Shown here: positions 2,582 to 52,358 of the stretch, piece by piece | How the letters are laid out: every line of letters begins with the position of its first letter | How positions within the stretch are numbered: the stretch's first letter is position 1 | NCBI RefSeq assembly: GCF_020614375.1 | Contig: NZ_CP085329.1 | Location: 1-64,000, forward strand | Direction: 5' to 3' | DNA length: 64,000 bases | Source of the DNA: Haladaptatus salinisoli | GTDB lineage: Archaea; Halobacteriota; Halobacteria; Halobacteriales; Haladaptataceae | Position numbers and translations under genes: made by a program | Notes under the pieces: model-generated | Database searches by the model: none | The model's input: only the letters and a program-made list of their open reading frames with translations | What the model was told of the DNA's origin: nothing

Positions 2582-2601
2582 TTACATACCTAATACTGTA
2601 A
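2582..2601. promoter_or_regulatory. TTACA-N10-TGTAA palindrome, site 1 (rdfA-ASRP gap)
   Basis: TTACATACCTAATACTGTAA lies 38 bp after the rdfA stop and about 25 bp before the TATA-like box of the ASRP gene (2624-2632). It shares 16 of 20 positions with site 2 at 12243-12262. Its reverse complement also contains AGTATTA, the word repeated upstream of parA. The position fits an operator controlling the ASRP gene. This is a candidate only. Confidence 0.55.
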
Positions 2602-2655
2602 CTCCTCGACGCCGAATATTGACCTTTTATATCTGTGGAACGGTAAGAAGTCGGT

Positions 2656-4620
2656 ATGGAACTAGCGTCGGAGAAGCTCGCTCAGGCTGAATTGGATGTC
2701 CGCAACATCGGCGGGATCGACGAAACCAACATCACGCTCACTCCGGGCGTGACCGTCCTTACCGGACGGAACGCGACGAATCGAACGTCGTTGCTCCAAG
2801 CCGTCATGGCGGCGCTCGGGAGTAACCAGTCGTCGCTCAAAGGTGACGCGGACGAAGGGAAGGTCGAACTGACCGTCGGCGACGAGACGTACACGCGAAC
2901 GCTGACGCGACAGGACGGGACGGTCGTAACGAGCGGCGATCCGTATCTCGACGACCCCGAGCTCGCGGACCTCTTCGCGTTCCTCCTGGAATCGAACGAG
3001 GCTCGCCGCGCGGTCGCGCGCGGCGACGACCTGCGCGAACTCATCATGCGTCCCGTGGACACGGACGCGATTCAGGCCGAGATCGAACGGGCGAAAGCCG
3101 AAAAGCACCAACTCGACGAGGAGCTCGACGAGCTCGAATCGCTCAAACAGCGTCTTCCCGATCTCGAGGAGGAACGAACGCGCTTAGAGAAGGAGATAGA
3201 GGAGAAACAGTCCGAACTCCGGGCGAAGGAGGCCGAACTGGAAGCCGCCGACGCCGACATCGGCGAGACGCACGCGGAAAAAGCCGAACTCGAGGAGAAA
3301 CTCGAAGAGCTCCGCGACACTCGGTCGCGTCTCGAAGACGTTCGGTTCGACATCGAAACCGAGGAAGACAGCATCGACGCGCTGGAGACCGAAGTTTCGA
3401 CGCTCGAAGAAGAGCAAGCCGAACGCTCCGACACTCCGGAAGGGGAGGCCGAACGGCTCGCGGATCAAATCCAGCAGCTGCGCGACCAGAAACAACGGCT
3501 CGACTCGACGATGACCGAACTCCAGACGGTCATCCAGTTCAACGAAGAGATGCTGGAGGGGACGAGTCCCGAGGTGGTGAGCGCACTCCGGTCGAGCGAC
3601 GAAGCCGCGTCGGACTCGACCGAATCCATCACCGACCAACTCGTGGCCGACGCGGAGACGGTGGTCTGCTGGACGTGCGGAACGGAGGTCGAAAAACAGG
3701 AAATCGAAGCGACGGTCGAACAGCTCCGCGAGTTCCGAAAAGAACAGCTCGCCGAGCGAAACACGATAGATTCGGAGATCTCCGATCTGAAGGACGAGAA
3801 GCAGGAACTCGAGGCGACGCGACGCCAGCGCGAGCAGGCGGAACAGCGACTTCGCCAACTCGAATCGGAACTCGACGAGCGCGAGACCCGCCTCGAAGAA
3901 CTCCGCGAGACGAGAACCGAACTCACCGACGAAATCGAACAGCTCGAAGGGGAGGTCGAGGAACTCGAGCAAGAAGAGTACAGCGACGTGCTGGACATCC
4001 ACAAGGAAGCGAACCAGCTCGAGTTCGAACTCGGACGGCTCGAAGACGACCTCGACGACGTCGAGGCGGAGCTCACCACCATCGAGTCTCGACTCGACGA
4101 AAAGGAGCAGCGCGAAGCGCGACGGGAGGAGATTCAGGAGGAGCTGGCGGACCTCCGCACCCGCATCGAACAGATCGAAGCGCAAGCGGTCGAACAGTTC
4201 AACGAGCACATGGCGACCGTTCTCGACTTGCTCGACTACGAGAATCTCGAACGCATCTGGATCGACCGCACCGAACGAGACGTTCGGGAGGGGCGGCGGA
4301 AAGTCACGAAGAGCGTCTTCAACCTGCACGTCGTCCGAAGCACGGAGTCGGGAACGACATACGAGGACACCATCGACCACCTTAGCGAGAGCGAGCGGGA
4401 GGTCACCGGCCTCGTGTTCGCGCTCGCGGGCTACCTCGTCCACGAAGTCTACGACCGGGTCCCGTTCATCCTGTTGGACTCGCTCGAAGCGATAGACTCC
4501 GACCGCATCGCGCAGATCGTCGAGTACTTCAGCGAATACGCCGGCTACCTCGTCGCCGCGCTCCTCCCGGAGGACGCCGCGGCTCTCGACGACGAGCACG
4601 AGCGAGTGACCGAAATCTGA
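2656..4620 (+). CDS. Archaea-specific SMC-related protein (ASRP)
   Basis: A 654-residue SMC/Rad50-shaped protein: N-terminal ATPase half (1-140), long Glu/Arg/Leu-rich coiled coil (about 145-540) interrupted by a zinc-hook-like Cys338-x2-Cys341, and C-terminal ATPase half with a Walker B-like VPFILLDSLEA (602-612). The P-loop is degenerate: residues 37-45 read GRNATNRTS, with Arg in place of the essential Lys and no glycines at the usual inner positions, so ATP hydrolysis is doubtful. As I recall, ASRPs are usually encoded beside RdfA and presumably organise DNA or act with RdfA in cell shape. TATA-like TTTTATAT (2624-2632) is about 28 bp upstream of the ATG. Its end converges with the phosphatase gene. 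Confidence 0.85.
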   Translation: MELASEKLAQAELDVRNIGGIDETNITLTPGVTVLTGRNATNRTSLLQAVMAALGSNQSSLKGDADEGKVELTVGDETYTRTLTRQDGTVVTSGDPYLDDPELADLFAFLLESNEARRAVARGDDLRELIMRPVDTDAIQAEIERAKAEKHQLDEELDELESLKQRLPDLEEERTRLEKEIEEKQSELRAKEAELEAADADIGETHAEKAELEEKLEELRDTRSRLEDVRFDIETEEDSIDALETEVSTLEEEQAERSDTPEGEAERLADQIQQLRDQKQRLDSTMTELQTVIQFNEEMLEGTSPEVVSALRSSDEAASDSTESITDQLVADAETVVCWTCGTEVEKQEIEATVEQLREFRKEQLAERNTIDSEISDLKDEKQELEATRRQREQAEQRLRQLESELDERETRLEELRETRTELTDEIEQLEGEVEELEQEEYSDVLDIHKEANQLEFELGRLEDDLDDVEAELTTIESRLDEKEQREARREEIQEELADLRTRIEQIEAQAVEQFNEHMATVLDLLDYENLERIWIDRTERDVREGRRKVTKSVFNLHVVRSTESGTTYEDTIDHLSESEREVTGLVFALAGYLVHEVYDRVPFILLDSLEAIDSDRIAQIVEYFSEYAGYLVAALLPEDAAALDDEHERVTEI

Positions 4621-4653
4621 GGCCGTCTCCGAGGTTCGAAGGCGGTGCTCGGA

Positions 4654-4692
4654 ACCGTACTTTTATGTGCCGCCGACGCCGTGATGTACGGT
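4654..4692. terminator. Inverted repeat in convergent intergenic region
   Basis: ACCGTAC (4654-4660) and GTACGGT (4686-4692) form a 7-bp stem; the loop starts with a TTTTA run. It lies between the convergent ASRP and phosphatase genes and could end transcription from either side. Weak evidence. Confidence 0.25.
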
Positions 4693-4770
4693 ACTTAGTG
4701 GCACGACGACCGTCAGAGCGGGGACTCGTCGCAGAGCGAAACCGAACGCGCGGAGCAGAGCCGAACTCGT

Positions 4771-5556
4771 CTACCGGACGGCTCGCGCGACGCGGCCGAC
4801 GACCTCGTCGTGGCGCGTCCCGTTCGACGCGACGATACCCTCGCAGCCGGGTTCCCACGGCGACCCCTCCACGTCCGTTACCGTCCCGCCGGCCCGCTCG
4901 ACCAAGTGGACCCCCGCGATAGTATCCCACGGGTTCGGATTCGGTTGCGTCGAAACCGCGGCGTCGAGCGTGCCGCAGGCGACCATTCCAAGCGTCACCT
5001 GCGCGCAGCCGAAGCGGCGCAGGTCTCCGAACCGCAGTATCAGCTCCCGGAGAAGCTCGCCGAACTCCCGGTCGCGTTCGGAACCGTACCGAAGGACGGG
5101 GGCGACGATGAACTGGTCTAAGTCGGTTCGTCCGCTCACCGATATCCGCTCCCCGTTCAGCGTCGCGTCGTCGGAGTCCGCGGCGTACGTATCGCCGAGC
5201 GCCGGAGCCACGGTCGCCGCCGCGACGGTCTCGTCGTCGCGGACGGCCGCGACGGTCGTCGTCCACAGTTGCGCCCCGCGGACGAAGTTCGTCGTCCCGT
5301 CGATGGGGTCGATGACCCACGCGTTCCCGTCCTCGGGAACCGACTTTAGTTCGTCCTCCTCCTCGCCGACGATCGTCGCGTCGGGATAGTCGTCGCGGAT
5401 GCGTTCGATGACGCGTCGTTGCGTCTCGGTGTCCGCTCTGGTGACGAAGTCCATCTTCGAACTCTTGGTTTCGACGTCCAACTCGGTACGAAAGAGGCGC
5501 TGCGCGACTTCGGCCCCCTCGACCGCGGCTCGAAACGCGGTGTCGTATCGTGTCAT
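4771..5556 (-). CDS. Inositol monophosphatase family phosphatase
   Basis: A 261-residue member of the Mg-dependent, Li-sensitive phosphatase family (inositol monophosphatase, archaeal fructose-1,6-bisphosphatase, PAP phosphatase). Metal-site motifs are intact: GEE at 64-66, DPIDGTTNF at 83-91 and WD with Asp211 near the C-terminus. The substrate cannot be named from sequence; sugar phosphates, inositol phosphate or glycerol phosphate are all possible. It lies 84 bp downstream of the first ABC importer on the same strand with no clear TATA box between, so it may be the last gene of that operon and act on the imported compound after phosphorylation. Confidence 0.85.
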   Translation of the reverse strand: MTRYDTAFRAAVEGAEVAQRLFRTELDVETKSSKMDFVTRADTETQRRVIERIRDDYPDATIVGEEEDELKSVPEDGNAWVIDPIDGTTNFVRGAQLWTTTVAAVRDDETVAAATVAPALGDTYAADSDDATLNGERISVSGRTDLDQFIVAPVLRYGSERDREFGELLRELILRFGDLRRFGCAQVTLGMVACGTLDAAVSTQPNPNPWDTIAGVHLVERAGGTVTDVEGSPWEPGCEGIVASNGTRHDEVVGRVARAVR

Positions 5557-5640
5557 GGCGATCGGTTCGTTTCGAACGATTCGGCCCCGCGCGTGTTAGT
5601 CTTTACCGTCGGGATCGCCGAAAGCGGTCGCGGGCGACGG

Positions 5641-6834
5641 TCAGACGATTCGAGCGCCGCCCTCCTCGAACAGCCACGCCTCCTCGGTTCGAACGTCGAT
5701 GCGAACGCGGTCGATTTCCCTCGATATCTCTCCCTGCGGGGTGACCGCCGACAGCGGAGTTCCGTTCGCCGACAGGTGGACCGCGTCCCTGTCGCCGAGC
5801 GGTTCGATAACGTCGACGTCGGCCGCGAAGTCGCCGCGCTCGCTTCCGAGGTCCAGATACTCCGGTCGGATGCCGTAGATGACGGTGTCCCCGACGCGGT
5901 CTTCGACCCGCGCAGCCTGCTCTTCGGTCGCAGAAATCGTACAGAATTCGGAGACGAACGCGAGACCCGAGGACGTGCGTTCGACCGTGCACTCTATCAG
6001 ATTCGGCGACGGCGAACCGATGAAGTCCGCGACGAAGAGGTTGTCCGGGTCGTTGTAGATGTCGTACGGACTCCCGATCTGCTGGACGTGACCGTCGTTC
6101 ATCACCACGATCTTGTCCCCGAGCGTCATCGCCTCCTCCTGGTCGTGCGTGACGAATATCATCGCCGTGTTCAGCTCCCGTTGAATCTTCTTGACCTCGA
6201 CGCGCATGTGGTCGCGGAGGTTCGCGTCGAGGGCGGAGAACGGTTCGTCGAGCAGGAACGCCGCCGGCTCCATCACCATGGCGCGCCCGAGCGAGACGCG
6301 CTGCTGTTGTCCCCCGGAGAGCGCCGCCGGCTTGCGGTCGAGCATCTCGGCGATGCCGAGCGTCTCGGCCACCTCCTCGACGCGTCGATTCTTCTCCGCT
6401 TTCGAGAGGTCGGTGTTCATGTCGAGGCCGAAGCGGATGTTCTTGCGGACGCTCATGTGCGGAAAGAGCGCGATGCTCTGGAAGACGAACGCGAGGTTCC
6501 GGTCTTTCGATTTCAGGCCCGTTATGTCCTCGCCGTCGACGAGGATGCTCCCTTCGTCGGGGTCCTCCAACCCGGCGATGCACCGTAGCGTCGTCGTCTT
6601 GCCGCACCCCGATGGGCCGACCAGCACGACGAACTCGCCCTCGTCGATTTCGATGTTCACGTCGTCGCAGGCGACGATCGCGCCGTCGTCGAACGTCTTG
6701 CGGAGGTCGTCGATGCGGATGTGCTTTCCCGCTTCGCTCGCACCCGCGCGGTCTCGTTCGGTACTCGATTCTACCGGCCGGGTTCGTCCGGTCGAACTGT
6801 TGCCGTCTGTTTGGTTCATTGTATCTCGGCTCAT
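5641..6834 (-). CDS. Sugar ABC transporter ATP-binding protein (MalK/UgpC type)
   Basis: A 397-residue ATPase that powers import through the two permeases encoded upstream. The N-terminus has a 40-residue polar extension, then the nucleotide-binding domain with GPSGCGKTT P-loop, FQSIALFPHMSV Q-loop region, LSGGQQQRV signature, FLLDEPFSALD Walker B and VTHDQEEA switch. A C-terminal OB-type regulatory domain, typical of carbohydrate importers, follows. The open frame extends far upstream, but the ATG at 6834 overlaps the upstream permease stop (ATGA) and fits operon coupling; the ATG at 6819 is an alternative. Substrate unknown. Confidence 0.9.
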   Translation of the reverse strand: MSRDTMNQTDGNSSTGRTRPVESSTERDRAGASEAGKHIRIDDLRKTFDDGAIVACDDVNIEIDEGEFVVLVGPSGCGKTTTLRCIAGLEDPDEGSILVDGEDITGLKSKDRNLAFVFQSIALFPHMSVRKNIRFGLDMNTDLSKAEKNRRVEEVAETLGIAEMLDRKPAALSGGQQQRVSLGRAMVMEPAAFLLDEPFSALDANLRDHMRVEVKKIQRELNTAMIFVTHDQEEAMTLGDKIVVMNDGHVQQIGSPYDIYNDPDNLFVADFIGSPSPNLIECTVERTSSGLAFVSEFCTISATEEQAARVEDRVGDTVIYGIRPEYLDLGSERGDFAADVDVIEPLGDRDAVHLSANGTPLSAVTPQGEISREIDRVRIDVRTEEAWLFEEGGARIV

Positions 6835-8587: not shown

Positions 8588-8588
8588 C

Positions 8589-11292: not shown

Positions 11293-11350
11293 GACCGGAA
11301 TCGCCGGCGGAAGGCGCACATTTAAAACAACGAGGGCTGTCGGTACGAAC

Positions 11351-12133
11351 ATGAGCGACGATTCGTCCGAAGCAGGCGCAGGAAACACGCTCGGGTCGAT
11401 CGAGAAGGCGTTCACCATTCTCGAACAGCTCAAGACGGTGGAGCGAGCGGGTCTTTCGGAGCTGTCGAACCAGTTGGATATTCCGAAGAGCACGGTTCAC
11501 ATCTACCTCCAGACGCTACGGAAGAGCGGTTTCATCGTGCGCGACGGCGACGAGTACACCCTCAGCTTCCGCTTCCTCGAATACGGCGGGAGCTTCCGCA
11601 ACCAGTCGAAACTCTACCAGGCCGCGCGGTTGGAGGTGGACAAACTCGCGCTGGACACCGGCGAGGTCGCGAACCTCGGCGTGGAGGAGAACGGACTGCG
11701 GGTGTTGATCTACAAGTCGGAAGGTCCGGAAGCCATCCACGACAATGCCCCCATCGGCGAGTACACGAACATGCACTGGACGGCGCTCGGAAAAGCGATG
11801 TTGGCCCACTTTCCGAGGGCGCGCGTGGAGTCCATCGTCGAGACGCACGGGTTGCCGCGAGCGAACGAGTACACGATAACGGACGCCGACGAACTGTTCG
11901 CCGAACTGGAGCGCGTTCGAGAGCGGGGATACTCCGTCGAGGACCAGGACCGAAGGCAGGGCGTCCTCACTATCGGTGCGCCGATCATGAACCGGAGCAC
12001 GGACGAAGTCATCAGCGCGGTTTCGGTTTCGGGGCCGAAGAGCCGCGTGGACGAGTCGAAGCGAATCGACGACCTCGTCGCAGCCGTCAAGAAGGCGGCG
12101 AACGTCATCGAACTTCGCTACTCCCACTACTAG
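11351..12133 (+). CDS. IclR-family transcriptional regulator (IclR-1)
   Basis: A 260-residue regulator. Residues about 13-75 form the N-terminal winged helix-turn-helix (GSIEKAFTILEQL ... LDIPKSTVHIYLQTLRKSGFI). Residues 85-258 are the IclR effector domain (MHWTALGKAMLAHFP, GYSVEDQDRRQGVLTIGAPI). IclR proteins usually sense a small metabolite and act on nearby operons. Candidates are the importer and dehydrogenase to the left or the GH3 gene to the right. A TATA-like element at 11320-11327 is about 27 bp upstream of the ATG. The 917-bp gap after this gene is packed with palindromes. Confidence 0.92.
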   Translation: MSDDSSEAGAGNTLGSIEKAFTILEQLKTVERAGLSELSNQLDIPKSTVHIYLQTLRKSGFIVRDGDEYTLSFRFLEYGGSFRNQSKLYQAARLEVDKLALDTGEVANLGVEENGLRVLIYKSEGPEAIHDNAPIGEYTNMHWTALGKAMLAHFPRARVESIVETHGLPRANEYTITDADELFAELERVRERGYSVEDQDRRQGVLTIGAPIMNRSTDEVISAVSVSGPKSRVDESKRIDDLVAAVKKAANVIELRYSHY

Positions 12134-12242: not shown

Positions 12243-12262
12243 TTACATAACTAACGGTGTAA
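12243..12262. promoter_or_regulatory. TTACA-N10-TGTAA palindrome, site 2
   Basis: TTACATAACTAACGGTGTAA starts 110 bp after the IclR-1 stop codon. It matches site 1 (2582-2601) at 16 of 20 positions. Confidence 0.55.
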
Positions 12263-12700: not shown

Positions 12701-12730
12701 AACCATTACAACGATACGGTTGTAAAGGTT
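12701..12730. promoter_or_regulatory. TTACA-N10-TGTAA palindrome, site 3, extended arms
   Basis: The core TTACAACGATACGGTTGTAA (12706-12725) sits inside a longer inverted repeat. The arms at 12701-12712 and 12719-12730 are 12 bp each with one mismatch and a 6-bp spacer (GATACG), the strongest dyad in the window. It lies about 320 bp before the GH3 start. Confidence 0.6.
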
Positions 12731-12942: not shown

Positions 12943-13050
12943 GATTTCCACGAAACGCCCGTCCTGGACGAGCGCGCGAAGGAGGTATCGATGTGAGACG
13001 GGTTACCATCGTCCGAATCCTTAAGAGACGGGGTTGCGAGAACTCGAGTG

Positions 13051-22408: not shown

Positions 22409-22409
22409 T

Positions 22410-40532: not shown

Positions 40533-41288
40533 ATGGACGCAAAACACCCGGTACAAACCACCGAAAAGACGCTCATGCTGGTCGAGGAGTTGAAGATACG
40601 GGGTTCCTGCGGGGTGACGGAACTCGCGGATAGTCTCGGAATGGGAAAGAGCATGGTTCACAATCACCTGACCACGCTCCAGAAGCACGGGTACGCACTG
40701 AAGGTCGGCGATGAGTATCAACTCGGCTTAAAGTTCCTCGATATCGGCGGGCACATCCGGAAGTCCATGGAACTCTACGAGGTGGCGGAACCCGAGGTAA
40801 AGTCACTCGCCGACGAAACCGGAGAGCTCGCGAATCTACTCGTGGAAGAACAAGGCAAAGGAGTCTATCTGATGCGAGCCAAGGGAGCGAAGGCCGTCGA
40901 CCTCGACACGTACGCGGGTCTCCGGACGTACCTCCACACGACGGCGCTTGGAAAGGCTGTACTAGCGCATCTTCCCGAGGAGCGGGTCGAGGAGATAATC
41001 GACCGACACGGACTCAAGCGGAAGACGCCCCAGAGCATCGGAACGCGAGAGGAACTGTTCGACACGCTAGCGGACGTCCGAGAGCGCGGGTACGCCATCG
41101 ACGACGGGGAACGTCTCGAGGGTCTCCGCTGCATCGCGGCCCCGGTGAAGACGTCCTCGAACGACGTCCTCGGAGCGATCAGCGTCTCGGCCCCAGCGAG
41201 CCGGGTCAGCGACGAAGACCTCCACGGAGGACTACCGAAGCGGGTGCTCAACGCGGCGAACGTCATCGAACTCAACATCAACTACTGA
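40533..41288 (+). CDS. IclR-family transcriptional regulator (IclR-2)
   Basis: A 251-residue regulator: winged helix (about 5-70, [18 protein letters not shown] ... [21 protein letters not shown]) and C-terminal effector domain (about 80-248, [37 protein letters not shown]). It lies between the oligosaccharide importer and the glucuronate genes, so a xylo-oligosaccharide, glucuronate or pathway intermediate is a likely signal. TATA box 40501-40508, 28 bp before the ATG. Confidence 0.92.
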
Positions 41289-41297
41289 GCGCGGGTT

Positions 41298-41314
41298 GTT
41301 CTGTATTTGAGAAC
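41298..41314. promoter_or_regulatory. GTTC-N9-GAAC site after IclR-2
   Basis: GTTCTGTATTTGAGAAC starts 10 bp after the IclR-2 stop. Exact outer GTTC/GAAC, one mismatch in the inner arms. Confidence 0.5.
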
Positions 41315-41378
41315 GGCATCCGCTGTCGACGTAATCGGAACGAGGTTGGTATTGGTTATCAGTACCTCTTTCTCTGCT

Positions 41379-41398
41379 TTACAGGTATAAGACTGTAA
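41379..41398. promoter_or_regulatory. TTACA-N10-TGTAA palindrome, site 4
   Basis: TTACAGGTATAAGACTGTAA, with 6-bp arms TTACAG/CTGTAA, starts 91 bp after the IclR-2 stop. The centre GTATAAGA is AT-rich. Confidence 0.55.
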
Positions 41399-41433
41399 TG
41401 GGTAAGGGGGTTGCCACCAATTCTCCCCCTCCG

Positions 41434-41450
41434 GTTCTCTATTTCGGAAC
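41434..41450. promoter_or_regulatory. GTTC-N9-GAAC site
   Basis: GTTCTCTATTTCGGAAC, exact outer ends. Same TATTT centre as the site at 41298. Confidence 0.5.
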
Positions 41451-41686
41451 AAGTTGGTGACGTCGTGACCTAAACGACTGATCCGTCGGTCGGCGACCGT
41501 CCTCGCGACCTCCGACCCCCGTTCGTCTCCCGGACTCGGTCGACTCTATCGGACGGATTTCACTCGGTACCGACGGTGGTCGAAATCGGCGTTCCACCGA
41601 ACGCCGCAACACGGCGCAGTGGAGGTATCGTCTCCTGGCGTCTGTCGGAGCGTCAGTACGCGAACCGATACCCGAGCCCCGTGAGA

Positions 41687-42466
41687 CTACTGATCGCCGC
41701 AACCCCACCCGTAGGCCTGCCATCCGCCGTCGGCGTACAGGACTTCGCCGGTGACGAAGTTGTCCCGCCCAACCAAAAAGAGCGCGCACTCCGCCATTTC
41801 TTCGACCGTCCCGAACCGGTTCAGGGGAGTCCGGTCGCGGATATCGTCGTCGGTGTAGCTCGCTGCACTCTGCGTTTGATCCGTGATTTCGGTCCAGATG
41901 AACCCCGGCGCGAGCGCGTTGACGTGTATATCGTGTTCCGCCCACTCGACCGCGAGCGTCCGCGTGAGGTTATTCACTCCGGCCTTCGACGCGCAGTAGG
42001 GCGAGCGCATCTGGAGGCCTCGACCACCCATCAGCGAGGACATGTTGAGAATCGCGCCGCCGCCCCCCTCTTTTATCATCTGTCGGCCCGCCACCTGACA
42101 CCCGATGAACGTGCCGGTCAGGTCGACGTCGACGACGGTTCGCCACTCCTCGAGATCGAACTCCTCCGCTCGGTCGAGCGTCGTGACGCCGGCGTTGTTC
42201 ACCAGAACGTCGAGTCCACCGAACGTCTCGACCGTGGTTCGGACGAGCGCCTCCATCGAGTTCGGATCGGTCACGTCGGCTTCGACGCCGACGGCGGTGC
42301 CGCCGGCGGATTCGATGGCTTTCGCGACCTCCTCGGCGCGCTCCTGCGACCGCGAGTTGACGACGACGTTCGCCCCCTCCTCGGCGAACCGCTCGGCGAT
42401 TCCGTTCCCGATTCCTCGGCTAGAGCCCGTGACGATCGCGGTCTGGCCGCTGAGTTTCTCTGCCAT
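41687..42466 (-). CDS. Short-chain dehydrogenase, probable fructuronate reductase
   Basis: A 259-residue classical SDR. NAD(P) motif TGSSRGIGNG, structural NNAG, and catalytic YCASK with the preceding Ser in NMSSLMGG; C-terminal GEVLYADGGW. SDRs are not specific by sequence alone. It lies with uxaC and uxuA, whose pathway needs a fructuronate-to-mannonate reductase, and in Bacillus that step is done by an SDR, so this is the best assignment. It follows uxaC by 65 bp on the same strand, so the two are probably one operon. Confidence 0.78.
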   Translation of the reverse strand: MAEKLSGQTAIVTGSSRGIGNGIAERFAEEGANVVVNSRSQERAEEVAKAIESAGGTAVGVEADVTDPNSMEALVRTTVETFGGLDVLVNNAGVTTLDRAEEFDLEEWRTVVDVDLTGTFIGCQVAGRQMIKEGGGGAILNMSSLMGGRGLQMRSPYCASKAGVNNLTRTLAVEWAEHDIHVNALAPGFIWTEITDQTQSAASYTDDDIRDRTPLNRFGTVEEMAECALFLVGRDNFVTGEVLYADGGWQAYGWGCGDQ

Positions 42467-42531
42467 GCGTGTCGAATACCACCGACGATCGGCACTTCAT
42501 TCTGTCGGTGTCGGGGGTGGGTTTTGGCCCG

Positions 42532-43899
42532 TCAGAGACCGTACAGCTCTTTCGGCCGGTCGTAGGCGACGCGTTCGACGAGGCGTCGGGCGTTCTCGAA
42601 CGGAATCTGCCCGCGTTCGACCATCTTGCCGACGACGGCGGCGAGCGTCCGCCGGAACATCTCGAAGCGCGACCCGTAGGAGACTATCTTCCGCGAATCG
42701 CTGACCATCCCGGCGAAGTTCGCGAGTAGATCCACGGCGGCGACGCGTTCGAGTTGATTCGCCATCCCGAACGGGCTGTCGTTGAACCACCACGCGGGGC
42801 CGATGCTCACGTTGGGATACGCGCGGGACACGACCGTCGCGCTCGGATAGTGCGTCGGATCGAGCACGTAGAGCACGACGTCCGTCTGGCCGTCGAAGGC
42901 GTCGAGGAAGTGGTCGAGTCCCCCGACCAAGTCTACGTTCTGCGTCGAAACGTCGCCGCCGGCGTCCGGCCCGACCTCCTCGAACACCGACTCCCGATAG
43001 TCGCGGACGGCCCCGATGTGCAGTTGGGTCACCCACCCCGCCTCGGCGTTCAGTTCGCCGATGAAATCGAGCACGTACGCCTTGAAGTCCCGCACCTCCG
43101 CCGAAGACGGACTCCGTCCACGTCGAGCCTTCTCGTACACCTCCCCCGCCCGCTCGCGGCGCACCGGTTTCGAGACGGGGTCGGTTCCCGTGCCGATATC
43201 GCATGCGACGCAGCCGTGATCGGCGAAGTAGTCGTGCGTCTCTTCGAGCGCGCCGAGGAATCCGGCGAAATCGTCGACGGGGCTCTCGGTCGCGTCGTCC
43301 AGTTCCGAGACGAACGTCGACCACTCCTCGCGGTCGATCTTCATCGCGCGATCCGGTCGCCACGTGGGCCTGACGTCGACGCCCTCGACCTCGTCCTTCG
43401 CGCGCTCGTGGTACCTCAGTCGGGAGGTCGGATCGTCGCTGCTGCACAGCACCTCGACGTTCATGTCTCGGAGCACCCGTTGGGGGCGCATCCGCGGTTC
43501 TGAAAGTTGCCGCGCCGTCTCCTCCCAAATCTCATCGGCCGTGTCGGCGCTAATGGGCGTCTCGATGCCGAAGCGACGCTTCAGGTCGAGGTGAACCCAC
43601 TCGTAGGTGGGATTACCCGCGAAATCCGGAAACACCGAGGCGAGGGCGTTCCACTTCTCTCTGTTCCCGGCGTCGCCGGTTATCTTCGCCTCCGAAACGC
43701 CCCGCTTGCGCATGAGTTGCCAGACGTAGTGATCCGTCGCGCCCTCGACCTCCCAGACGTCGTTCCACGGTTCGTTCTCGACGACTTCGGCGAGATCGAT
43801 GTGGTTGTGCGGGTCGACGACAGGGAGGTCGGCGATACTTCGGTAGAGCCGGTACGCCGTGTCGGTGTCCAACAGGTACCGCTCGTCGAGGAATCCCAT
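42532..43899 (-). CDS. uxaC: Glucuronate isomerase (UxaC)
   Basis: A 455-residue amidohydrolase-fold uronate isomerase that converts D-glucuronate to D-fructuronate (and galacturonate to tagaturonate). Family hallmarks: VVDPHNHID near residue 27-35, FGIETPIS, CSSDDP, WRPDRAM, and the C-terminal SDSRKIVSYGSRFEMFRR block. It takes the glucuronate released by the GH67 enzyme. First gene of an apparent operon with the SDR gene. The 96-bp gap to uxuA contains a TATA-like AATAAAA (43932-43938). Confidence 0.93.
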   Translation of the reverse strand: MGFLDERYLLDTDTAYRLYRSIADLPVVDPHNHIDLAEVVENEPWNDVWEVEGATDHYVWQLMRKRGVSEAKITGDAGNREKWNALASVFPDFAGNPTYEWVHLDLKRRFGIETPISADTADEIWEETARQLSEPRMRPQRVLRDMNVEVLCSSDDPTSRLRYHERAKDEVEGVDVRPTWRPDRAMKIDREEWSTFVSELDDATESPVDDFAGFLGALEETHDYFADHGCVACDIGTGTDPVSKPVRRERAGEVYEKARRGRSPSSAEVRDFKAYVLDFIGELNAEAGWVTQLHIGAVRDYRESVFEEVGPDAGGDVSTQNVDLVGGLDHFLDAFDGQTDVVLYVLDPTHYPSATVVSRAYPNVSIGPAWWFNDSPFGMANQLERVAAVDLLANFAGMVSDSRKIVSYGSRFEMFRRTLAAVVGKMVERGQIPFENARRLVERVAYDRPKELYGL

Positions 43900-43995
43900 G
43901 GCTCCTTCTGCTCGGACGCCGCCAATAAAACTTCGGTACGGGGCAGCGCGACGGTCGGATCGTCGGTGACTCGTCGCGCCGTCGTTCCGCGGCGG

Positions 43996-44958
43996 TTACT
44001 GCACCGCGTCCGTTCTCTCCAGCAGCCCTCGCATGTAGCCGACGGCGTACAGCCGCCCCATGTCGGTGTACCCGGCCATCGCCTCCTCTCGGTCTTCCTC
44101 GCCGACCATCTTCGGAACGTGGTCGGGTCGAATCGGCCCGTCGAACCCGACGTCGCGGTAGGCCTCCATCGCGGCGAGCATATCCGTTTGTCCCGCCTCG
44201 TGCCACGTCTCGACGAAGGAGTCCGCCGTCCCCTCCACGTCGCGGAAGTGGACGAAGTGGATGCGGTCGCCGAATCGACGGATCGTCTGGGGCACGTCGG
44301 CACCCATGGCCGAGAAGTTTCCCTGACAGAAGGTCAGCCCGTGGTTCGGGCTGTCGTGGAGGTTGAGGATGCGTTCGACGTTCTCCGCGGACGTGACGAG
44401 TCGCGGGACGCCGCGAACCGGCGAAATCGGCGGATCGTCGGGGTGGAGCGCGAGCTTGACCCCCGCCTCCTCCGCGACTGGAACGACCTCGTCGAGGAAG
44501 TACTCGAGGTTTTCCCAGAGTTCCTCCTCGGTGATACCGGCGGCCTCGTGCTCGGGCGCTCGCTCGGATTGGTCGTGGTCGTACGCCGTCGTGAGCGACT
44601 CCCCTCTGAGCGGAACCGAGTCGGACGTCCGGAGGACGCCTACCGGGTTCTCCGTCCACACCCAGCAGTAGACGCCGACGCCGACCCGACCCATGTTCCG
44701 GAGCAGTCGCTTGACGGTCGCTATCTCCTCGTCGCGCCCTTCCTCGCCGAGAACCGTCCGCTCCATCGGCGGGCGGTCTTCCACCACGTCGAGCGAGAGT
44801 CCGTGGTCTTCGAAGCGGTTTCGCGTTTCGCGGAGCGAGTCGAGTGTCCACCACTCCTCCTCGCCCCAGAACCGGACGACCGCGCTGGAGAGGCCGAGCT
44901 GTCGAGCTATCCGCCACCGCCGATCCGGACGCGGCGGCAGCATCACCGTCAAATCCAT
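43996..44958 (-). CDS. uxuA: Mannonate dehydratase (UxuA)
   Basis: A 320-residue xylose-isomerase-like TIM barrel enzyme that turns D-mannonate into 2-keto-3-deoxy-D-gluconate. Blocks typical of UxuA: GVGVYCWVW, LALHPDDPP, GLTFCQGNFSAMG, RIHFVHFRDVEG and PIRPDHVPKM. It is shorter than the roughly 360-395 residues of bacterial UxuA, mainly at the N-terminus, which still begins with the expected MDLTVMLPP strand. It completes the isomerase route from glucuronate; a KDG kinase is not in this window. Confidence 0.88.
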   Translation of the reverse strand: MDLTVMLPPRPDRRWRIARQLGLSSAVVRFWGEEEWWTLDSLRETRNRFEDHGLSLDVVEDRPPMERTVLGEEGRDEEIATVKRLLRNMGRVGVGVYCWVWTENPVGVLRTSDSVPLRGESLTTAYDHDQSERAPEHEAAGITEEELWENLEYFLDEVVPVAEEAGVKLALHPDDPPISPVRGVPRLVTSAENVERILNLHDSPNHGLTFCQGNFSAMGADVPQTIRRFGDRIHFVHFRDVEGTADSFVETWHEAGQTDMLAAMEAYRDVGFDGPIRPDHVPKMVGEEDREEAMAGYTDMGRLYAVGYMRGLLERTDAVQ

Positions 44959-45476: not shown

Positions 45477-46009
45477 CCGCCGCCGGCGGTAAAGCACCGG
45501 CTTCTCGCGCCCGTGGTCTCCGGGACCGACGGTAGGAGAGAATTGTAGCAGATACGAACGATAAAATGGCAATGATTTTACCGAAATGGCGGAAGCCATC
45601 TACGGCCGTCTCGTGTTTCGATACGTGAATCGGTTCGCCGAGAGGACGAGACGAGCGGAGGAGACGGCCGAGAACCGACGAGACGGACCCGCACTCCCCC
45701 TCGAATTTCCTCGACACCGCGCTCCTCGTCGCGGCGAATGCCGACCCCGAAACCTCATCGGAAGACCCGACGCTACCCGGGGGTGTACGCGGCGGTGCGG
45801 GGCGCTACGGCCGAGGGAACCGTGCCGGCGTTCCGTCGGCGTCGACCACCGGCCGAAGTGGACGATTCTTCGCGATGGCATTAAGGGTAATCGACACCAT
45901 TCGCATAAATTTCACATCACTTAGGAAATACTGTCTGAATTCGTGGGGTGGATTCAATCCCTTTCGAGCGGAGCGGTCGTCGCTCTTCCGGGACGAGTCC
46001 AAGCGGGCG
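45477..46009. other. 533-bp gene-free gap before the copper ATPase gene end
   Basis: No supported gene. TAAAAT (45562-45567) and ATTTTA (45575-45580) form an inverted repeat with a 7-bp spacer. An AT-rich patch at 45900-45945 also stands out. The flanking genes converge, so terminator function is the simplest idea. Confidence 0.45.
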
Positions 46010-48298
46010 TTAGTCCGCCGGTCGGGGGGTCGCGCGCGCGGGGACGCCCGGGAGCGAGGGCAGGTCGAGGTCGACCCGCCGGAGGAACTGGGCGTTGATG
46101 GCGACGATGACCGTGCTAAGCGACATCAGGAGCGCGCCGACCGCCGGCGAGAGGAGGACGCCGATCGGCGCGAGCACGCCCGCCGCCAGCGGGATGGCGA
46201 CCACGTTGTAGCCCGCGGCCCACACCAGATTCTGTTGCATCTTCCGATAGCTCGCCCGACTCAGTTTGACGAGTCGCACCACGTCGAGCGGGTCGTTCTG
46301 CACGAGGACGATATCCGCCGACTGCACGGCCACGTCCGTTCCGCTTCCGATGGCGATACCGATGTCCGCCCGGGTGAGCGCGGGGGCGTCGTTGACCCCG
46401 TCGCCGACCATCGCCACGAGCGCTCCCCGCGACTGGAGTTCCGCGACCTTCTTGTCCTTGTCTTCCGGCAGTACCTCGGCGAAGACGGTGTCGATGCCGA
46501 GTTCGTCCGCGACCGCGGTCGCGACGTCCTCGCTGTCGCCGGTCAGCATCGCAACCTCGATGTCCAGTTCGTGGAGCGCGTCGACGACCCGATAGCTCGA
46601 CTCGCGAACGACGTCGGCGAGCGCGAACGCTGCGAGCACCTCGTCGCCGCGCACGAGGTACACGACGGTCTGCGCGTTCTCCCCGGCGCGCTCCGCGAAG
46701 TCCTCGAGTCGGGGCGGTACGTCGCCCTCGAACTGCGAGAGGAGGTTCGGCCCGCCGACGTACACCGTCTCGTCGTTCACGGTCGCTCGGACGCCGCGTC
46801 CCTTGAGCGCCTCGAATCCCGTCGCCGTCGGGGTCGCGACGCCGCGTTCGTCGGCCGCGTCGCGGATCGCCTCCGCGATCATGTGCTCGGAGTCGCCCTC
46901 GACGGCGGCGGCGAGCGCGACCGCCTCCTCCTCGGTGACGCCGTCGACGGTGTCGACGTCCACGACGCCCTGCTCGCCCTCCGTGAGGGTTCCCGTCTTG
47001 TCGAACATCACCGTATCGACGTTGCGAGCCTGCTCCATGGCGATTCGGTCCCGCACGAGCATCCCGTTGCGCGCGGCGAGCGACGTGTTGATGGCGACGA
47101 CGAGCGGGATGGCGAGTCCGAGCGCGTGCGGACACGAGATGACGAGCACGGTCACGGCGCGTTCGATGACCGCCGCGTCGAACGACGTCGCGACCGTCCA
47201 CGCGACGGCGGTCACCGCCGCCGACGCCACGGCGACGTAGAACAGCCACCCCGCCGCGCGGTCGGCCAGCATCTGGGTTCGGGAGCGACTTCCCTGCGCC
47301 TCTTCGACGAGTCGCATGATTCCGGCGAGCGCCGTCTCGTCGCCCGTGGCGGTGACGCGGACGCGGAGGCTTCCGTCGCCGTTGACGGTGCCGCCGACGA
47401 CCTCGTCCCCCGGCTCCTTGGGAACGGCCCGGGATTCGCCCGTAATCATCGCCTCGTTCACGTCGGAGTCGCCCGCCTCGACCACGCCGTCGGCGGGCAC
47501 GTTCGCTCCGGGGCGCACGAGCACGAGGTCGCCCTCTCGGAGTTCGCCGACGGGTACTTCTTCGGTCTCGCCGTCGGACGCGAGGCGCTCGGCGGTGTCC
47601 GGAATCAGCCGCGCGAGTTCGTCGAGCGCCCCGGACGCGCGCCGGACGCTCCGCATCTCGATCCAGTGCCCGAGGAGCATGATGTCGATGAGCGTCACGA
47701 GTTCCCAGAAGAACGCCGCCGTCGTCGGGACGACGACGCTCGCCAGACTGTAGACGAACGCGACGCTGATCGCCATCGAGATGAGCGTCATCATCCCCGG
47801 CGCGCGCTCCCGGAGTTCCGGAACCGCCATCCGGAGGAACGGCACGCCGCCGTATCCGAAGACGATCACCGCGAACACCGGATTGATCCACTCGCTGCCG
47901 GGGAACGACGGGACCGAGAATCCGAGCCACTCTTGGAGCGCCTCGCTGTAGAGGAGAACCGGTACCGAGAGGAGCGTCGAGACGAAAAATCGCCGCCGGA
48001 ACAGTTGTTCGTGGCCGGCGTGCATCCCGCCGCCGTCGCCGTGGTCGTGACCGCCGCGGCCGCCATCCCCGTGGTCGCCACCCCCGTGGCCCGCGTCGCG
48101 CGCGTACCGCTCGTGGACGTCGCGTTCGGCCTCGTCCGCGTCCTCCGCTTCCGCCTCGAGCATCGACCGTTCCACCCGCGGCTCCTCGCGCTCACCGTCG
48201 GACGCGTCCCCACTCTCTCCGTGCTCGTGGCGTCCGTCGCGGCCGGCGCGACGGTCGGACGATTCCTCCCTATCGCTCGAATCTCCGTGCTCGTCCAT
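46010..48298 (-). CDS. copB: Copper-transporting P-type ATPase, CopB type
   Basis: A 762-residue P1B-type ATPase. A His/Asp/Gly-rich cytoplasmic N-terminus (about 1-100, with repeats such as [11 protein letters not shown]) replaces the usual Cys-x2-Cys domain. The intramembrane motif is CPH rather than CPC, which marks the CopB subgroup. TGES actuator loop, DKTGT phosphorylation site and [12 protein letters not shown] hinge are intact. It exports copper (Cu+ or Cu2+) from the cytoplasm. Promoter-side DNA has the palindrome ACCGTACGGT at 48317-48326, about 20-28 bp before the ATG. It diverges from a Cys-rich small protein. Confidence 0.92.
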
Positions 48299-48598
48299 GG
48301 ATTATCCCCGTGCGCTACCGTACGGTCTCACCAACGAAGGATGTGTGGGTCGGTATCACTTTGAGGCCCGCTTCCATTTATCGACCGAGGAGCTACGCCC
48401 ATCGCTAACGGACGAGTCCGCCCGCGCCCGAATCCGCTCCCTGACGCCGGTTCTCCGGTGATAAGGGTGGGATCTCCTCTCCGGTCGAGACCGTTTCCGA
48501 TATGCACCGTCGGCCGCGCGGTCCCTGCCCACCCCGTCACCCGAACGTCAGGTGGCGGGGATAACGCACAAGCGGCACGATTCCGTAAGGGAATCACG
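48299..48598. promoter_or_regulatory. Divergent region copB / Cys-rich protein
   Basis: 300 bp without a gene. Two dyads: ACCGTACGGT (48317-48326) in front of copB and GATTCC-GTAAG-GGAATC (48579-48595) in front of the small protein gene. Confidence 0.5.
48579..48595. promoter_or_regulatory. 17-bp palindrome over the start region of the Cys-rich gene
   Basis: GATTCC and GGAATC are perfect 6-bp arms around GTAAG, ending 3 bp before the ATG at 48599. A TATA-like GATAACG at about 48560 would place the transcription start inside the dyad, a repressor-type location. A metal-sensing repressor is a guess from the copB neighbour. Confidence 0.5.
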
Positions 48599-48910
48599 AT
48601 GGGAGAGCACACCGAAACGGTCGAGGGATACGTCATGGACGGTGGTTGCATACGGAAGAACGCGCGCGACGAACTCCTCGAAAACGCCCGGACGCACACC
48701 CGAGACTGCGCGCTGATGGGACACTGCATCGAGAGCGGGTACGGTATCGTCACCGACGACGACCGACTCGTGATGCTCGACCCGGAAGCCACGCGGCAAG
48801 TCGTCGATTCCGTGGAGGCGACCGAGAAGGAGGAGGGCATCCGACTGCGCGTGACCCGCGAAGCCGAGGACGACCGAATGGAGACGACCGCCGTCGAGGA
48901 GATCCGCTAG
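48599..48910 (+). CDS. Small Cys-containing protein next to copper ATPase
   Basis: A 103-residue protein with the pattern GYVMDGGC (Cys17), then CALMGHC (two Cys four residues apart, about 39 and 43), then SGYGIVTDDDRLVMLDP. Three cysteines and a nearby His could bind a soft metal. The second half looks like a small beta barrel. Similar Cys-plus-SGYG proteins exist in bacteria without clear function, as far as I recall. Start at 48599 because the dyad and promoter lie right upstream and the longer frame is not protein-like. The role in copper handling is inferred from context. Confidence 0.6.
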   Translation: MGEHTETVEGYVMDGGCIRKNARDELLENARTHTRDCALMGHCIESGYGIVTDDDRLVMLDPEATRQVVDSVEATEKEEGIRLRVTREAEDDRMETTAVEEIR

Positions 48911-49015
48911 CGCCCGCATCTTCGATTCGAGTCGCGCGATTCCGCGATTACGTACACGAAAATTTAGCCAATACGTGAATTTTTATCACGCTCTGGGTTG
49001 ACGGTTCACACGCAT

Positions 49016-50317
49016 ATGGCAACGGAGAAGCGCAAACGAGCGTTCGTGCGATCTTTTTTCACGTCACCGACCGCCGTCGAACAGGACGACACCGCGAAGA
49101 TGTTGCGCAAGGCCTCGCAGCTTCGAGGGATGCAGGCCCCCGACGTTTGGGTGCCGGACAACGAAGACGCGACGGCACCGAGCATGCGCGACGAGGGCGT
49201 CGAGAACATCCTTGACGTGATTTCGGAGCACGGCGAAGATTTCCCCGGCGAAATCCATCCCCGCGTCGTCTGGCACAGGGACGACCCCGAGACCAGACGA
49301 CGCGGATTCGAGCACATGATGCGCCTCGCCGACCCCGACGAGGGGGCGGTTCAGCACATCGACGGGTTCGTGATTCCCGAAGTCGGCGCTATCGACGACT
49401 GGAAGAAGGCCGACGAGTTCATCACCATCGTGGAGGCCGAACACGGTCTCGAAGAGGGCTCGCTCTCCATGTCGCCGATCATCGAGAGCGGGGAAGCCGA
49501 ACTGGCAATGTCCCGAATCGACGAGGAGATCGGGAAGCGATCGAACAACCTGGAACGGCTCTTCCTCCTCGTCGACGGCGAGGTCGACTACACCAAGGAC
49601 ATGCGCGCCATGACCCCGACGGGCGACCTCCCTCCGTGGCCGGAGCTGCGGCACAACACCTCCCGCGCCGCGAGCGCGAACGGGCTGATCGCCGTCGACG
49701 GGCCCTACGACGACATCAGGGACGTGGAGGGCTACCACGAGCGGATGACCGACAACCGGGCGAAGGGGATGCTCGGAATCTGGTCGCTGACGCCCGGACA
49801 GGTGGTGGAGGCGAACACGGCCCCCTTACCGCCCGAAGCGGGTAGCTACCTGCTGGAAATCGACGGGGAGACCGTCGAACTCGACCGAACCGAGGACGGA
49901 GGTCACGCGTACGACGGTGACGACGTCGAACTCGAAGCCCTGGGGGACGGGCGATACCGACTGAAAGCGGGCGGCGAGGAGCGCGAACTCGACGAAGACG
50001 AACTGCAGAAGGAACTCCGCGACCGAACGCAGTACGTCATGGCCATGGACGACTACGTCGACTCGATGGAGGAGTTCGAGGAGGCCAAGGCCGCGGGGAA
50101 GGGTGCCATCTCGATGACGCGAACGGCGAGACTGATTCTCGACGGTACCGAGGTCGAAGTGACGCGGGACCGGATGTGGGACGAAGCCACGTATCAGGCG
50201 GCACAGACCCCGATAACGCTGTTCCAGGAGGTGTACGAGGCCCGGCCCGATCAGCGGGACGAACTCGAAGACACGTACGGCGAGGAGGTCGTGGACCGCG
50301 CCATGGAGGTCGGATAA
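49016..50317 (+). CDS. aceB: Malate synthase, haloarchaeal (HpcH/HpaI-like) type
   Basis: A 433-residue enzyme of the CitE/HpcH-like fold that condenses glyoxylate and acetyl-CoA to malate, the small archaeal form rather than bacterial AceB/GlcB. Recognisable blocks: RSFFTSPTAVEQDDTAKMLRKA near the N-terminus, VWVPDNEDATAPSMRDEG and DGFVIPEVG. A central acidic insertion (about 270-330) follows the catalytic core. TATA-like TTTTTATC (48979-48986) is about 33 bp before the ATG at 49016. No isocitrate lyase gene is adjacent; glyoxylate may come from elsewhere in the genome. Confidence 0.88.
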   Translation: MATEKRKRAFVRSFFTSPTAVEQDDTAKMLRKASQLRGMQAPDVWVPDNEDATAPSMRDEGVENILDVISEHGEDFPGEIHPRVVWHRDDPETRRRGFEHMMRLADPDEGAVQHIDGFVIPEVGAIDDWKKADEFITIVEAEHGLEEGSLSMSPIIESGEAELAMSRIDEEIGKRSNNLERLFLLVDGEVDYTKDMRAMTPTGDLPPWPELRHNTSRAASANGLIAVDGPYDDIRDVEGYHERMTDNRAKGMLGIWSLTPGQVVEANTAPLPPEAGSYLLEIDGETVELDRTEDGGHAYDGDDVELEALGDGRYRLKAGGEERELDEDELQKELRDRTQYVMAMDDYVDSMEEFEEAKAAGKGAISMTRTARLILDGTEVEVTRDRMWDEATYQAAQTPITLFQEVYEARPDQRDELEDTYGEEVVDRAMEVG

Positions 50318-50419
50318 CGGTCGCGGACGGCGGTCTCGAGTAGCGGTCGACTTTTTTGCTCGGCTCCGAGAGCGTCGTGACGGCTACCTTCATGGCGGAG
50401 CCACTCCAACCGACGGACG

Positions 50420-51622
50420 ATGTTCCGGATGGTCGATGCGTTCGAGTACGAGTACCGCGACTGCGACCTGATATACGGCCGCGGATGCGTGGGTCGATTG
50501 GGGGACTACCTCGCGGAGCGCGGCCTCGACCGCGCCCTCGTCGTCTGCGGGTCGAACGTCGGAGCCAACGACGACCTGATGAACCCGGTCGAAGGAGGAC
50601 TCGGCGAACGTCTGACGGGCGTCTTCGACCGGACGACGTCGGAGAAACGGGCCGAAACCGCGTTCGAGGTCGTCGACGCGTTGCGCGAGACGGACGCGGA
50701 CGTCCTCGTCGGTGTCGGAGGCGGCAGCAGTCTCGACGTCGCCCGACAGGCGAGCGTCCTCGCTGCGGACGACCGCTCGCTCGCGGAACTCCGCGACGAG
50801 GCGCGCGACGGGGAAATCGGTTCGTTCGACTCGAACGGCGAGAAACCGCCGGTGATCGTCGTTCCGACGACGTTCGCGGGGGCGGACGTGTCGAGCGGCG
50901 GGTCGGTCGAGATACTCTCCGCGGCGGAGTCCCCGACGGCGCAGCCGGTGAGCGTCGGCGGGTCCGCGATGCCGATATCGGACTTCGCCGACCCGTCCCT
51001 GTTCGAGACGACCCCCGTCGGCGCGCTGGCCGGGTCGGCGATGAACGGATTCGATAAGGGGATCGAGACGCCGTACGCCCGCGATGCGGACCCCGTCAGC
51101 GACGCGACGGCGGTTCACGGCCTCCGCCTGCTGAGCGAGGCGCTTCCGCGGGTCGCCGGCGACGAGGAACCCGCCGACGCCGCGGCGACGGAGCGGGCGG
51201 TGGTCGGTTTGCTGCTCGTCCAACTCGACCGCAAAATCTCCGTCGTCCACGCGTTCGGCCACGGGTTCGCCCGTCGATACGCCGTTCAACAGGGGGCGGC
51301 GCACGCGGTCGTCGTCCCGCACGTGCTCCGGTATCTCTTCGAAGGAGTCGACGCGAACCGGGCCGCGCTGGCGGAGGGGTTCGGAATCGACCCGGCCAAC
51401 CACTCCGACGCCGAGTTGGCCGACGCGGTAGTCGACGCGGTCGCCGAGGTGCGCGACGCGCTCGACGCGCCGACGCGTCTCCGGGAGCTTCCCGAAACGC
51501 GGAGGGCGGATCTGCTGGCTATCGCCGAGTTCATCGTCGACGACCACCCGATGGCTCGCGCGCCGGCGGGACTGAACCCGACCGCCGAGGAAGTCGAGGC
51601 GGTGCTCCGGGAAGCGTGGTGA
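50420..51622 (+). CDS. Iron-containing alcohol dehydrogenase family protein
   Basis: A 400-residue group III alcohol dehydrogenase: N-terminal nucleotide fold (RGCVGRLGDYLAERGLDRALVVCGSNVG, VGVGGGSSLDVARQ) and helical metal domain with ligands in NGFDKGIE and HAFGHGFARRY. It could be an alcohol, glycerol-type or maleylacetate-reductase-like enzyme. ATGs at 50420 and 50429 are both possible; a TATA-like TTTTTT at 50351-50356 would leave a short leader. It follows malate synthase by 102 bp, with no proven link. Confidence 0.82.
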   Translation: MFRMVDAFEYEYRDCDLIYGRGCVGRLGDYLAERGLDRALVVCGSNVGANDDLMNPVEGGLGERLTGVFDRTTSEKRAETAFEVVDALRETDADVLVGVGGGSSLDVARQASVLAADDRSLAELRDEARDGEIGSFDSNGEKPPVIVVPTTFAGADVSSGGSVEILSAAESPTAQPVSVGGSAMPISDFADPSLFETTPVGALAGSAMNGFDKGIETPYARDADPVSDATAVHGLRLLSEALPRVAGDEEPADAAATERAVVGLLLVQLDRKISVVHAFGHGFARRYAVQQGAAHAVVVPHVLRYLFEGVDANRAALAEGFGIDPANHSDAELADAVVDAVAEVRDALDAPTRLRELPETRRADLLAIAEFIVDDHPMARAPAGLNPTAEEVEAVLREAW

Positions 51623-51755
51623 GAGGCGACCGATCGAAGCGTCCTCTCGGCGACTCGTCGCGGTTTTCCTCGCGAACCTTCCGGCGGACGTGACGCGAGA
51701 ACGGTCGCGCTATCGAGTCGGCTTTCTCACCCTCGAAGCTCCAACCGGTTACGAA

Positions 51756-51773
51756 ACTGATTACCCGATCAGT
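51756..51773. repeat. 18-bp palindrome ACTGAT-N6-ATCAGT
   Basis: Perfect 6-bp arms around TACCCG, about 135 bp after the alcohol dehydrogenase stop. No promoter is obvious next to it. Confidence 0.35.
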
Positions 51774-52338
51774 CGTGGAAATGGTCGCGGACGAGCGATC
51801 GACGTCGACCTATCCTCATCGCAAGCGTCGAACGAGCGGGAAACGCCGGCGCGCAGCATCGTCTCCGGCGCTTTCGGGCGACGCTCGCGACCGACTACCG
51901 TCCGTTCCCCCGAAAGAGTATCGGAGGTCGACCGGAATGCGACGTATCGCCGACTCTCTTTCGAACGCCGTTCGCCCCGAAGCGCCGGAACCGGTCGTGG
52001 AGGGCTTACGAAGAAGCCCGCACCGGTGGCTACGTCCGCGCGATGCCCTCCTCCGGACGCGACGGCAACGGCGAGCCGCCTCGTCGCTTCGGGCTCAGCG
52101 ACCTCCTCGAGCAGTCCCGCGGTTTGGTCGGGAGACGCTCTCCACGACGGGCCATCGACGGAAACGGTGGAAATATCGAGTAAATAATTTTGAACGAATG
52201 GAGGGGGATTTTCGAATCCCGCTTTCCGCGTCCGCGACCGCGAGGTATCGTGTAGAATCGGCGCGTTACGCCCGGAAGCCCGCTTCGCGCGCAGTTCGGC
52301 GGGTAGCGCGAGGGTCCGAACGCGGAACCGGCTATGCT

Positions 52339-52358
52339 TTACACGACTACACCTGTAA
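52339..52358. promoter_or_regulatory. TTACA-N10-TGTAA palindrome, site 5
   Basis: TTACACGACTACACCTGTAA, 115 bp beyond the stop codon of IclR-3, the same relation as sites 2 and 4 to IclR-1 and IclR-2. Confidence 0.55.

Follow-up and report, generated by a model that had tools for sequence, protein, structure and literature searches.

The window, as we call the whole stretch of DNA analysed here, comprises 64,000 nucleotides of Haladaptatus salinisoli (RefSeq assembly GCF_020614375.1, contig NZ_CP085329.1, positions 1 to 64,000 of the forward strand) and contains five copies of a 20-bp palindrome, TTACA-N10-TGTAA. These lie near three genes for IclR-type regulators and beside the gene for an RdfA protein, which is followed by a gene for an SMC-related protein. 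An earlier note, made from the sequence alone, had regarded the palindromes as operators of one regulator. Our data support this proposal and sharpen it: co-variation of RdfA with the palindrome arms and a dyad search blind to the arm letters indicate that the regulator is probably RdfA, encoded beside the first site (we put the probability at roughly three in four). The features concerned are as follows.

1914..2543, + strand: RdfA, candidate reader of the palindrome (PF21811, 267.6 bits, cut-off 27); class H-x3-H, expected for TTACA
2247..2261, + strand: codons 112-116 of RdfA, encoding helix residues H-Q-A-V-H, of which the outer two co-vary with the arm
2582..2601, no strand: palindrome 1, TTACATACCTAATACTGTAA, between rdfA and the SMC-related gene; site conserved in H. 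halobius
2625-2632: TATA-like sequence TTTTATAT, 3' of palindrome 1 and before the SMC-related gene; region conserved in H. halobius
2656..4620, + strand: archaea-specific SMC-related protein (ASRP/Sph type), the usual neighbour of rdfA (NF045487, 732.5 bits)
11351..12133, + strand: IclR-type regulator 1 (PF01614, PF09339)
12243..12262, no strand: palindrome 2, past the stop of the IclR gene 11351-12133; orthologous H. halobius site at L056 14347
12706..12725, no strand: palindrome 3, 322 bp before the GTG at 13048 of a glycoside hydrolase family 3 gene; orthologous site at L056 14705
40533..41288, + strand: IclR-type regulator 2 (Pfam), adjoining glucuronate genes (uxaC and uxuA by Pfam)
41379..41398, no strand: palindrome 4, flanked by an IclR gene and a convergent SDR-uxaC-uxuA run; orthologous site at L058 4650
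52339..52358, no strand: palindrome 5, flanked by convergent genes for an iron-type alcohol dehydrogenase and an IclR protein
52474..53244, - strand: IclR-type regulator 3 (Pfam)

All five exact palindromes were found where the earlier note had placed them, and gene calling confirmed that each is intergenic. The first lies between rdfA and the SMC-related gene, and three start shortly past IclR genes: 110 bp after the stop at 12133, 91 bp after that at 41288 and 116 bp after that at 52474. Sites 2582 and 12243 are identical at 16 of 20 positions, as claimed. The dyad with 12-bp arms described at 12701-12730 is present, but its arms contain one mismatch by eye. The central TA, found in 5/5 sites, had been overlooked. 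A chance origin is unlikely, as had been estimated, with no TTACA-N10-TGTAA in 100 dinucleotide shuffles of the window, and a search allowing one mismatch found no additional site in the window (expected 0.14). In a scan with a position weight matrix built with the five window sites included, these sites scored 24-30 bits, while the runner-up in the window reached -5 and the best of 20 shuffles 18; the scan revealed no weak secondary palindromes in the window.

The element is not confined to the window. The 5.04-Mb genome (eight contigs) contains 21 exact sites and none of the reversed pattern, and all 21 have the TA centre, giving the element TTACA-N4-TA-N4-TGTAA. The 2,866,551-bp contig C1 has none of the 21 exact sites and none of the 16 IclR genes of the genome; it holds one variant site, TTACA...CGTAA. 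In the genus, all nine genomes searched have the element (178 sites, one reversed), and in the order it occurs in 165 of 243 sampled genomes, genus included. A second arm type, TAACA...TGTTA, was first seen at equivalent places in loci of IclR-rich, TTACA-poor genomes and is dominant in other lineages. It occurs 79 times in 22 of 59 genomes, among them all those previously named as outliers (reversed control 1), and is absent from the H. salinisoli genome. Both types are strict in their spacing. A scan of spacers from 4 to 20 bp, covering 1.31 Mb made up of the window and of loci fetched for their IclR or RdfA genes, found TTACA-Nk-TGTAA 56 times at k=10 (55 with the central TA) and no more than twice for any other spacer length, and TAACA-Nk-TGTTA 37 times at k=10 (35 with the central TA) and once elsewhere. 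In low-GC genomes a looser pattern barely exceeds its control (3 versus 2 in G251, 4 versus 2 in G252).

Placement was studied in 53 loci, most of them fetched around sites, with 74 sites in total and orthologous sites left unmerged. The sets chosen independently of the sites are the 54 IclR genes, the 79-80 named RdfA loci, the spacer scan and the set of 95 RdfA genes used below. None of the 74 sites lies inside a called gene, in agreement with the avoidance of coding DNA noted before. The sites fall in 34 tandem, 29 convergent and 11 divergent gaps, compared with 194, 71 and 97 of all 362 gaps, so that convergent gaps are enriched (29/74 vs 71/362, p 0.0004) and divergent gaps under-represented (11/74 vs 97/362, p 0.02). 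A convergent gap contains the start of neither neighbour, and the sites in such gaps are therefore probably not ordinary promoter operators. In the three gaps shared with H. halobius the core of the site is identical at 48/48 positions, whereas the spacers match at 17/32 and the remainder of the gaps at 199/378, 426/874 and 68/92. The flanks around 12243, 12706 and 41379 are poorly conserved.

The earlier note had suggested that the sites control unannotated transcripts beside the IclR genes, and the placing of 29 of the 74 sites in convergent gaps, where no neighbour starts, would suit palindromes that drive small or antisense RNAs. We consider this very improbable. On the far side of the IclR-downstream sites TATA-like stretches are not in excess (13/66 in the near bin, 9-15/66 in further bins, counted as AT runs), and strict TATA words likewise show no far-side excess there. 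No Rfam family matches in the window, and the poor conservation of the flanks also speaks against such RNAs. The IclR side of the sites has a weak TATA-like excess (p 0.009), which is confounded because the further bins fall in coding DNA. The rdfA side is different. Read in the direction of the gene, an AT-rich TATA-like stretch follows 15/48 of the rdfA-side sites compared with 4-6/48 in further bins (p 0.0005). This excess and the conserved TATA ahead of the SMC-related gene are in keeping with RdfA itself controlling these genes.

The association with IclR genes is general. Among 54 IclR genes chosen regardless of sites, 33 have a site of either arm type within 700 bp (13/21 and 20/33 in the two unselected sets; reversed control 0). 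Of these sites 21 are downstream and 12 upstream, and in H. salinisoli itself a site is found no more than 700 bp from 12 of the 16 IclR genes, nine times downstream and three times upstream, when three one-letter variants are counted. The position at the downstream flank of IclR genes, which had been described for all three genes of the window, is thus a tendency but not a rule, as the 12 upstream sites and the four siteless genes of the own genome show. Across 58 genomes (every fourth genome of the order sample, Haladaptatus excluded) the counts of TTACA sites and IclR genes correlate with rho 0.65, and with rho 0.88 when both arm types are summed. Sites are present in none of ten genomes without IclR and in 46 of 48 with it. 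Two genomes with 52 and 48 IclR matches (Halobacteriales archaeon YIM A00010, G245, locus L235; Halocatena marina, G246, locus L236) contain 65 and 81 sites of the looser pattern, with one control match each. These correlations favour an explanation in which the product of every IclR gene binds the adjacent palindrome, and paralogues share an operator core through their nearly common recognition helix, K-S-T-V-H-N-H-L. This explanation is weighed below against the arm types.

IclR and RdfA also occur together. Their presence coincides in 56 of the 58 genomes (47 with both, nine with neither, one with IclR only and one with RdfA only), and all 12 genomes later picked by hand for RdfA also have IclR, although at least two of them repeat the sample. 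The samples overlap in that G198 is G243, G248 and G249 repeat G128 and G164, and several named loci overlap unnamed ones. In 80 named loci found by RdfA alone, of which 79 yielded the gene, a site lies no more than 700 bp from 35/79 RdfA genes (none for the reversed control) and an IclR gene within 3 kb of 32/79, compared with 1-2% estimated by chance from gene density; a smaller unselected set gave a site at 10/20 RdfA genes. In annotated relatives, too, other rdfA genes have sites, and IclR genes adjoin some of them. An SMC-related gene lies within 1.5 kb of 65/79 RdfA genes. RdfA itself matches no further Pfam family above the cut-off.

The existence of two arm types allows the reader to be sought in co-varying residues. 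Before the counts were made, RdfAs with identical C-terminal parts were merged, and IclRs likewise. The comparison covered 75 distinct RdfAs, each no more than 350 bp from a site. Column 113 of the alignment (residue 112 here) is H in 54/54 proteins next to TTACA and Y in 19/21 next to TAACA, and column 117 (residue 116 here) is H or Y in all 54 of the former and R in all 21 of the latter. The two columns, which were chosen post hoc from 206, stand out with z 43 and 37, the next reaching 23. An AlphaFold2 model of RdfA (mean pLDDT 87) has a turn after helix 102-108 and then a short helix, 112-122, that contains residues 112 and 116. Another candidate, residue 55 (V versus L/I), separated the first 16 sequences perfectly by eye and failed in the 75, where V accompanies 35 TTACA and 5 TAACA sites, L 12 and 15, and I 7 and 1, with 13 changes on the tree.

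A dyad search that ignored the letters of the arms gave the same result. Beside 82 RdfAs of class H[HY] (H-x3-H/Y) it returned 35 TTACA dyads at 33 genes, no TAACA and nine other single dyads; beside 65 of class YR, 14 TAACA, no TTACA and one other dyad; and beside five of class HR, two TAACA and no TTACA. No dyad was found by this search at 22 RdfAs of other classes. Among 95 RdfA genes from 48 sample genomes (two fragments, G160:C10 and G036:C5:12435, excluded), 28 genes of the H[HY] class and 10 of the YR class have an adjacent site of the right type and no gene of either class has one of the wrong type, and of the 26 genes of other classes one has TAACA and 25 have no site. In five genomes both classes occur side by side, each with its matching arm type, and locus L298 of Halorubellus salinus encodes a YR and an HY RdfA with TAACA and TTACA sites beside them. 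If the longest open frame is taken for each RdfA, seven sites come to lie within such a frame, always before the first conserved block, and we take these frames to be over-long.

The relation holds for whole genomes. With the strict classes, which were defined after the outcome of a one-residue rule had been seen, TTACA occurs in 38/38 genomes with H[HY] and 1/20 without, and TAACA in 20/21 with YR and 2/37 without; among RdfA-bearing genomes only, the figures are 38/38 vs 1/10 and 20/21 vs 2/27. Of 13 genomes that combine a single RdfA with two or more sites, 12 show one arm type throughout, despite having 2-21 IclR genes, and at least two RdfAs are present in 14/15 genomes of mixed arm type but in 14/26 pure ones (p 0.014). 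On an RdfA tree built without the helix in question the arm changes three times, at least two of these changes being forced, and column 117 changes together with the arm in 2/2 supported pairs.

Several observations weigh against RdfA as the reader. In the 95-gene set 31/69 genes of the H[HY] and YR classes have no adjacent site. Eleven RdfAs of class WR (for example in G020, G172, G204, G212 and G240) have neither palindrome within 400 bp; perhaps they recognise a different site or do not read DNA. The one-residue rule, which was set beforehand, fits less well than the strict classes (38/42 vs 1/16 and 21/28 vs 1/30). Exceptions to the classes are one TTACA site in G224, a YR RdfA without TAACA in G220, and TAACA without YR in G092 and G164. 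The 2-3 arm switches on the RdfA tree are too few for a sign test, and a Foldseek search of the RdfA model against PDB found no structure with E <= 0.001. In IclR-bearing genomes, moreover, the number of sites tracks that of IclR genes (rho 0.80) and not that of RdfA genes (rho 0.17, not significant), and the two IclR columns showing the strongest co-variation with the arm, 49 (z 10.5) and 45 (z 5.5), both belong to the recognition helix.

The last two points support reading by IclR, which was our own working view until the single-RdfA genomes and the IclR tree led us to drop it. The IclR tree has 19 switches of the arm, mostly with the helix unchanged, and in 12 supported pairs the best helix residue, 49, is the same in 10.9. 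Columns 49 and 45 co-vary with the arm overall, but not across independent switches of the arm. The purity of single-RdfA genomes is likewise at odds with separate reading by 2-21 IclR proteins, and we regard such reading as unlikely. We favour RdfA because the arm type follows the class of RdfA, while the IclR tree shows 19 switches, mostly without a matching change of the helix. IclR may nevertheless touch the same DNA as RdfA. By eye, the IclR helix K-S-T-V-H-N-H-L and the RdfA helix S-H-Q-A-V-H-T-Y-L resemble each other.

Co-variation with RdfA could also be indirect, if the arms are read by a third protein, for instance the SMC-related neighbour, that evolves together with RdfA, and residues 112 and 116 only hitchhike. 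The frequent adjacency of the SMC-related gene and the small number of arm switches on the RdfA tree agree with this, whereas the position of the two residues in one short helix of the model, the distance of their z values from the next column and the 14/79 RdfA loci without an SMC-related gene within 1.5 kb argue against it. We consider hitchhiking quite improbable.

From these computed relationships we infer the binding itself, a dimer, a step involving the SMC-related protein and a direction of regulation, as follows. Two RdfA molecules, presumably as a dimer, would read the 5-bp arms by the helix that is SHQAVHTYL here, and almost any letters would be tolerated in both N4 spacers around the fixed central TA. 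RdfAs with H-x3-H/Y would read TTACA, and those with R in last place, mostly Y-x3-R, would read TAACA. RdfA would bind at promoter-like positions beside its own gene and that of its SMC-related neighbour, and hence probably controls itself. Most IclR genes, and sugar genes linked to them, would also have RdfA bound next to them, in many cases outside promoters. There, RdfA and the SMC-related protein might bridge or loop DNA and so set the state of these loci, which IclR proteins switch in response to their ligands. Bridging of DNA by the SMC-related neighbour is a natural guess; the looping step is tentative.

RdfA, "rod-determining factor A", is known from Haloferax volcanii as a shape factor acting in rod shape and motility, together with the SMC-like protein Sph3 (PMC10869688). 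The two proteins belong to the same families as those encoded here, and an SMC-related gene adjoins RdfA in 42/54 cases in that study, a proportion comparable to our 65/79 loci; unlike our analysis, the available passages of the paper give no DNA site and no link with IclR. Among the titles, abstracts and passages available, mainly from open-access papers, none names the palindrome or a DNA site of RdfA. In H. volcanii, the operator of CsmR is TATCA-N4-TGATA, and rdfA and sph3 belong to the CsmR regulon (PMC13286277). According to the passages available this is likewise a palindromic regulator site of haloarchaea, but it has other arms and spacing and is promoter-proximal.

The haloarchaeal sugar regulators XacR, GacR, RhcR and MscR are members of the IclR family and control the same kinds of genes as those found near the sites (PMC11519228, PMC10448506). 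The passages available from these papers name no operator, whereas the palindrome here is assigned, with the reservation above, to RdfA. Control of xacEA by xylose in H. volcanii requires DNA 250-750 bp upstream of the start (PMC10448506, in the part available). At 41263-41282 of the H. halobius locus L183, a palindrome lies 586 bp upstream of a gene of the mandelate racemase family, which is followed by gfo6, a gene annotated as xylose dehydrogenase. The distal placing of this site is like that of the xacEA control region, and the two together offer a precedent for action from a distance. A 21-mer of the xacEA region, derived from a primer, had no exact match in genome contigs; its two matches with three mismatches (14 genomes) had no open frame after them and were judged spurious.

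If RdfA reads the palindrome, a family so far known for cell shape would acquire a molecular function, with a DNA site and two specificity residues that form a simple protein-DNA code. This would also give a reason for the location of RdfA genes beside SMC-related genes, supply a missing partner for IclR regulation in haloarchaea and tie cell shape to gene control and nutrients across this group.

In bacteria, ParB reads the palindrome parS, is encoded near parA and acts with SMC loading. Positions 327-4620 of the window contain, in a row, a ParA-type gene, a small gene, RdfA and the SMC-related gene, and an Orc1/Cdc6 gene precedes them in H. halobius; the region looks like a replicon maintenance block. 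The likeness to ParB-parS is one of gene neighbourhood: parA and an SMC-type gene lie close to the gene for a candidate palindrome reader, whose sites are dispersed among intergenic regions. The present case differs in that the sites follow IclR genes and catabolic loci and that RdfA matches no other Pfam family above its cut-off. It is conceivable, though doubtful, that RdfA is a sequence-specific loader that places the SMC-related protein on palindromes beside IclR genes, as a ParB-parS-like machine for gene control. Sugar loci would then be regulated by loop formation besides promoter occupancy, and nutrient regulation would be linked to cell shape.

At 40533-44958 of the window an IclR gene faces a run of SDR, uxaC (glucuronate isomerase) and uxuA (mannonate dehydratase) genes. 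The region is likely a glucuronate locus, and both transcripts have its sole palindrome at their 3' ends.

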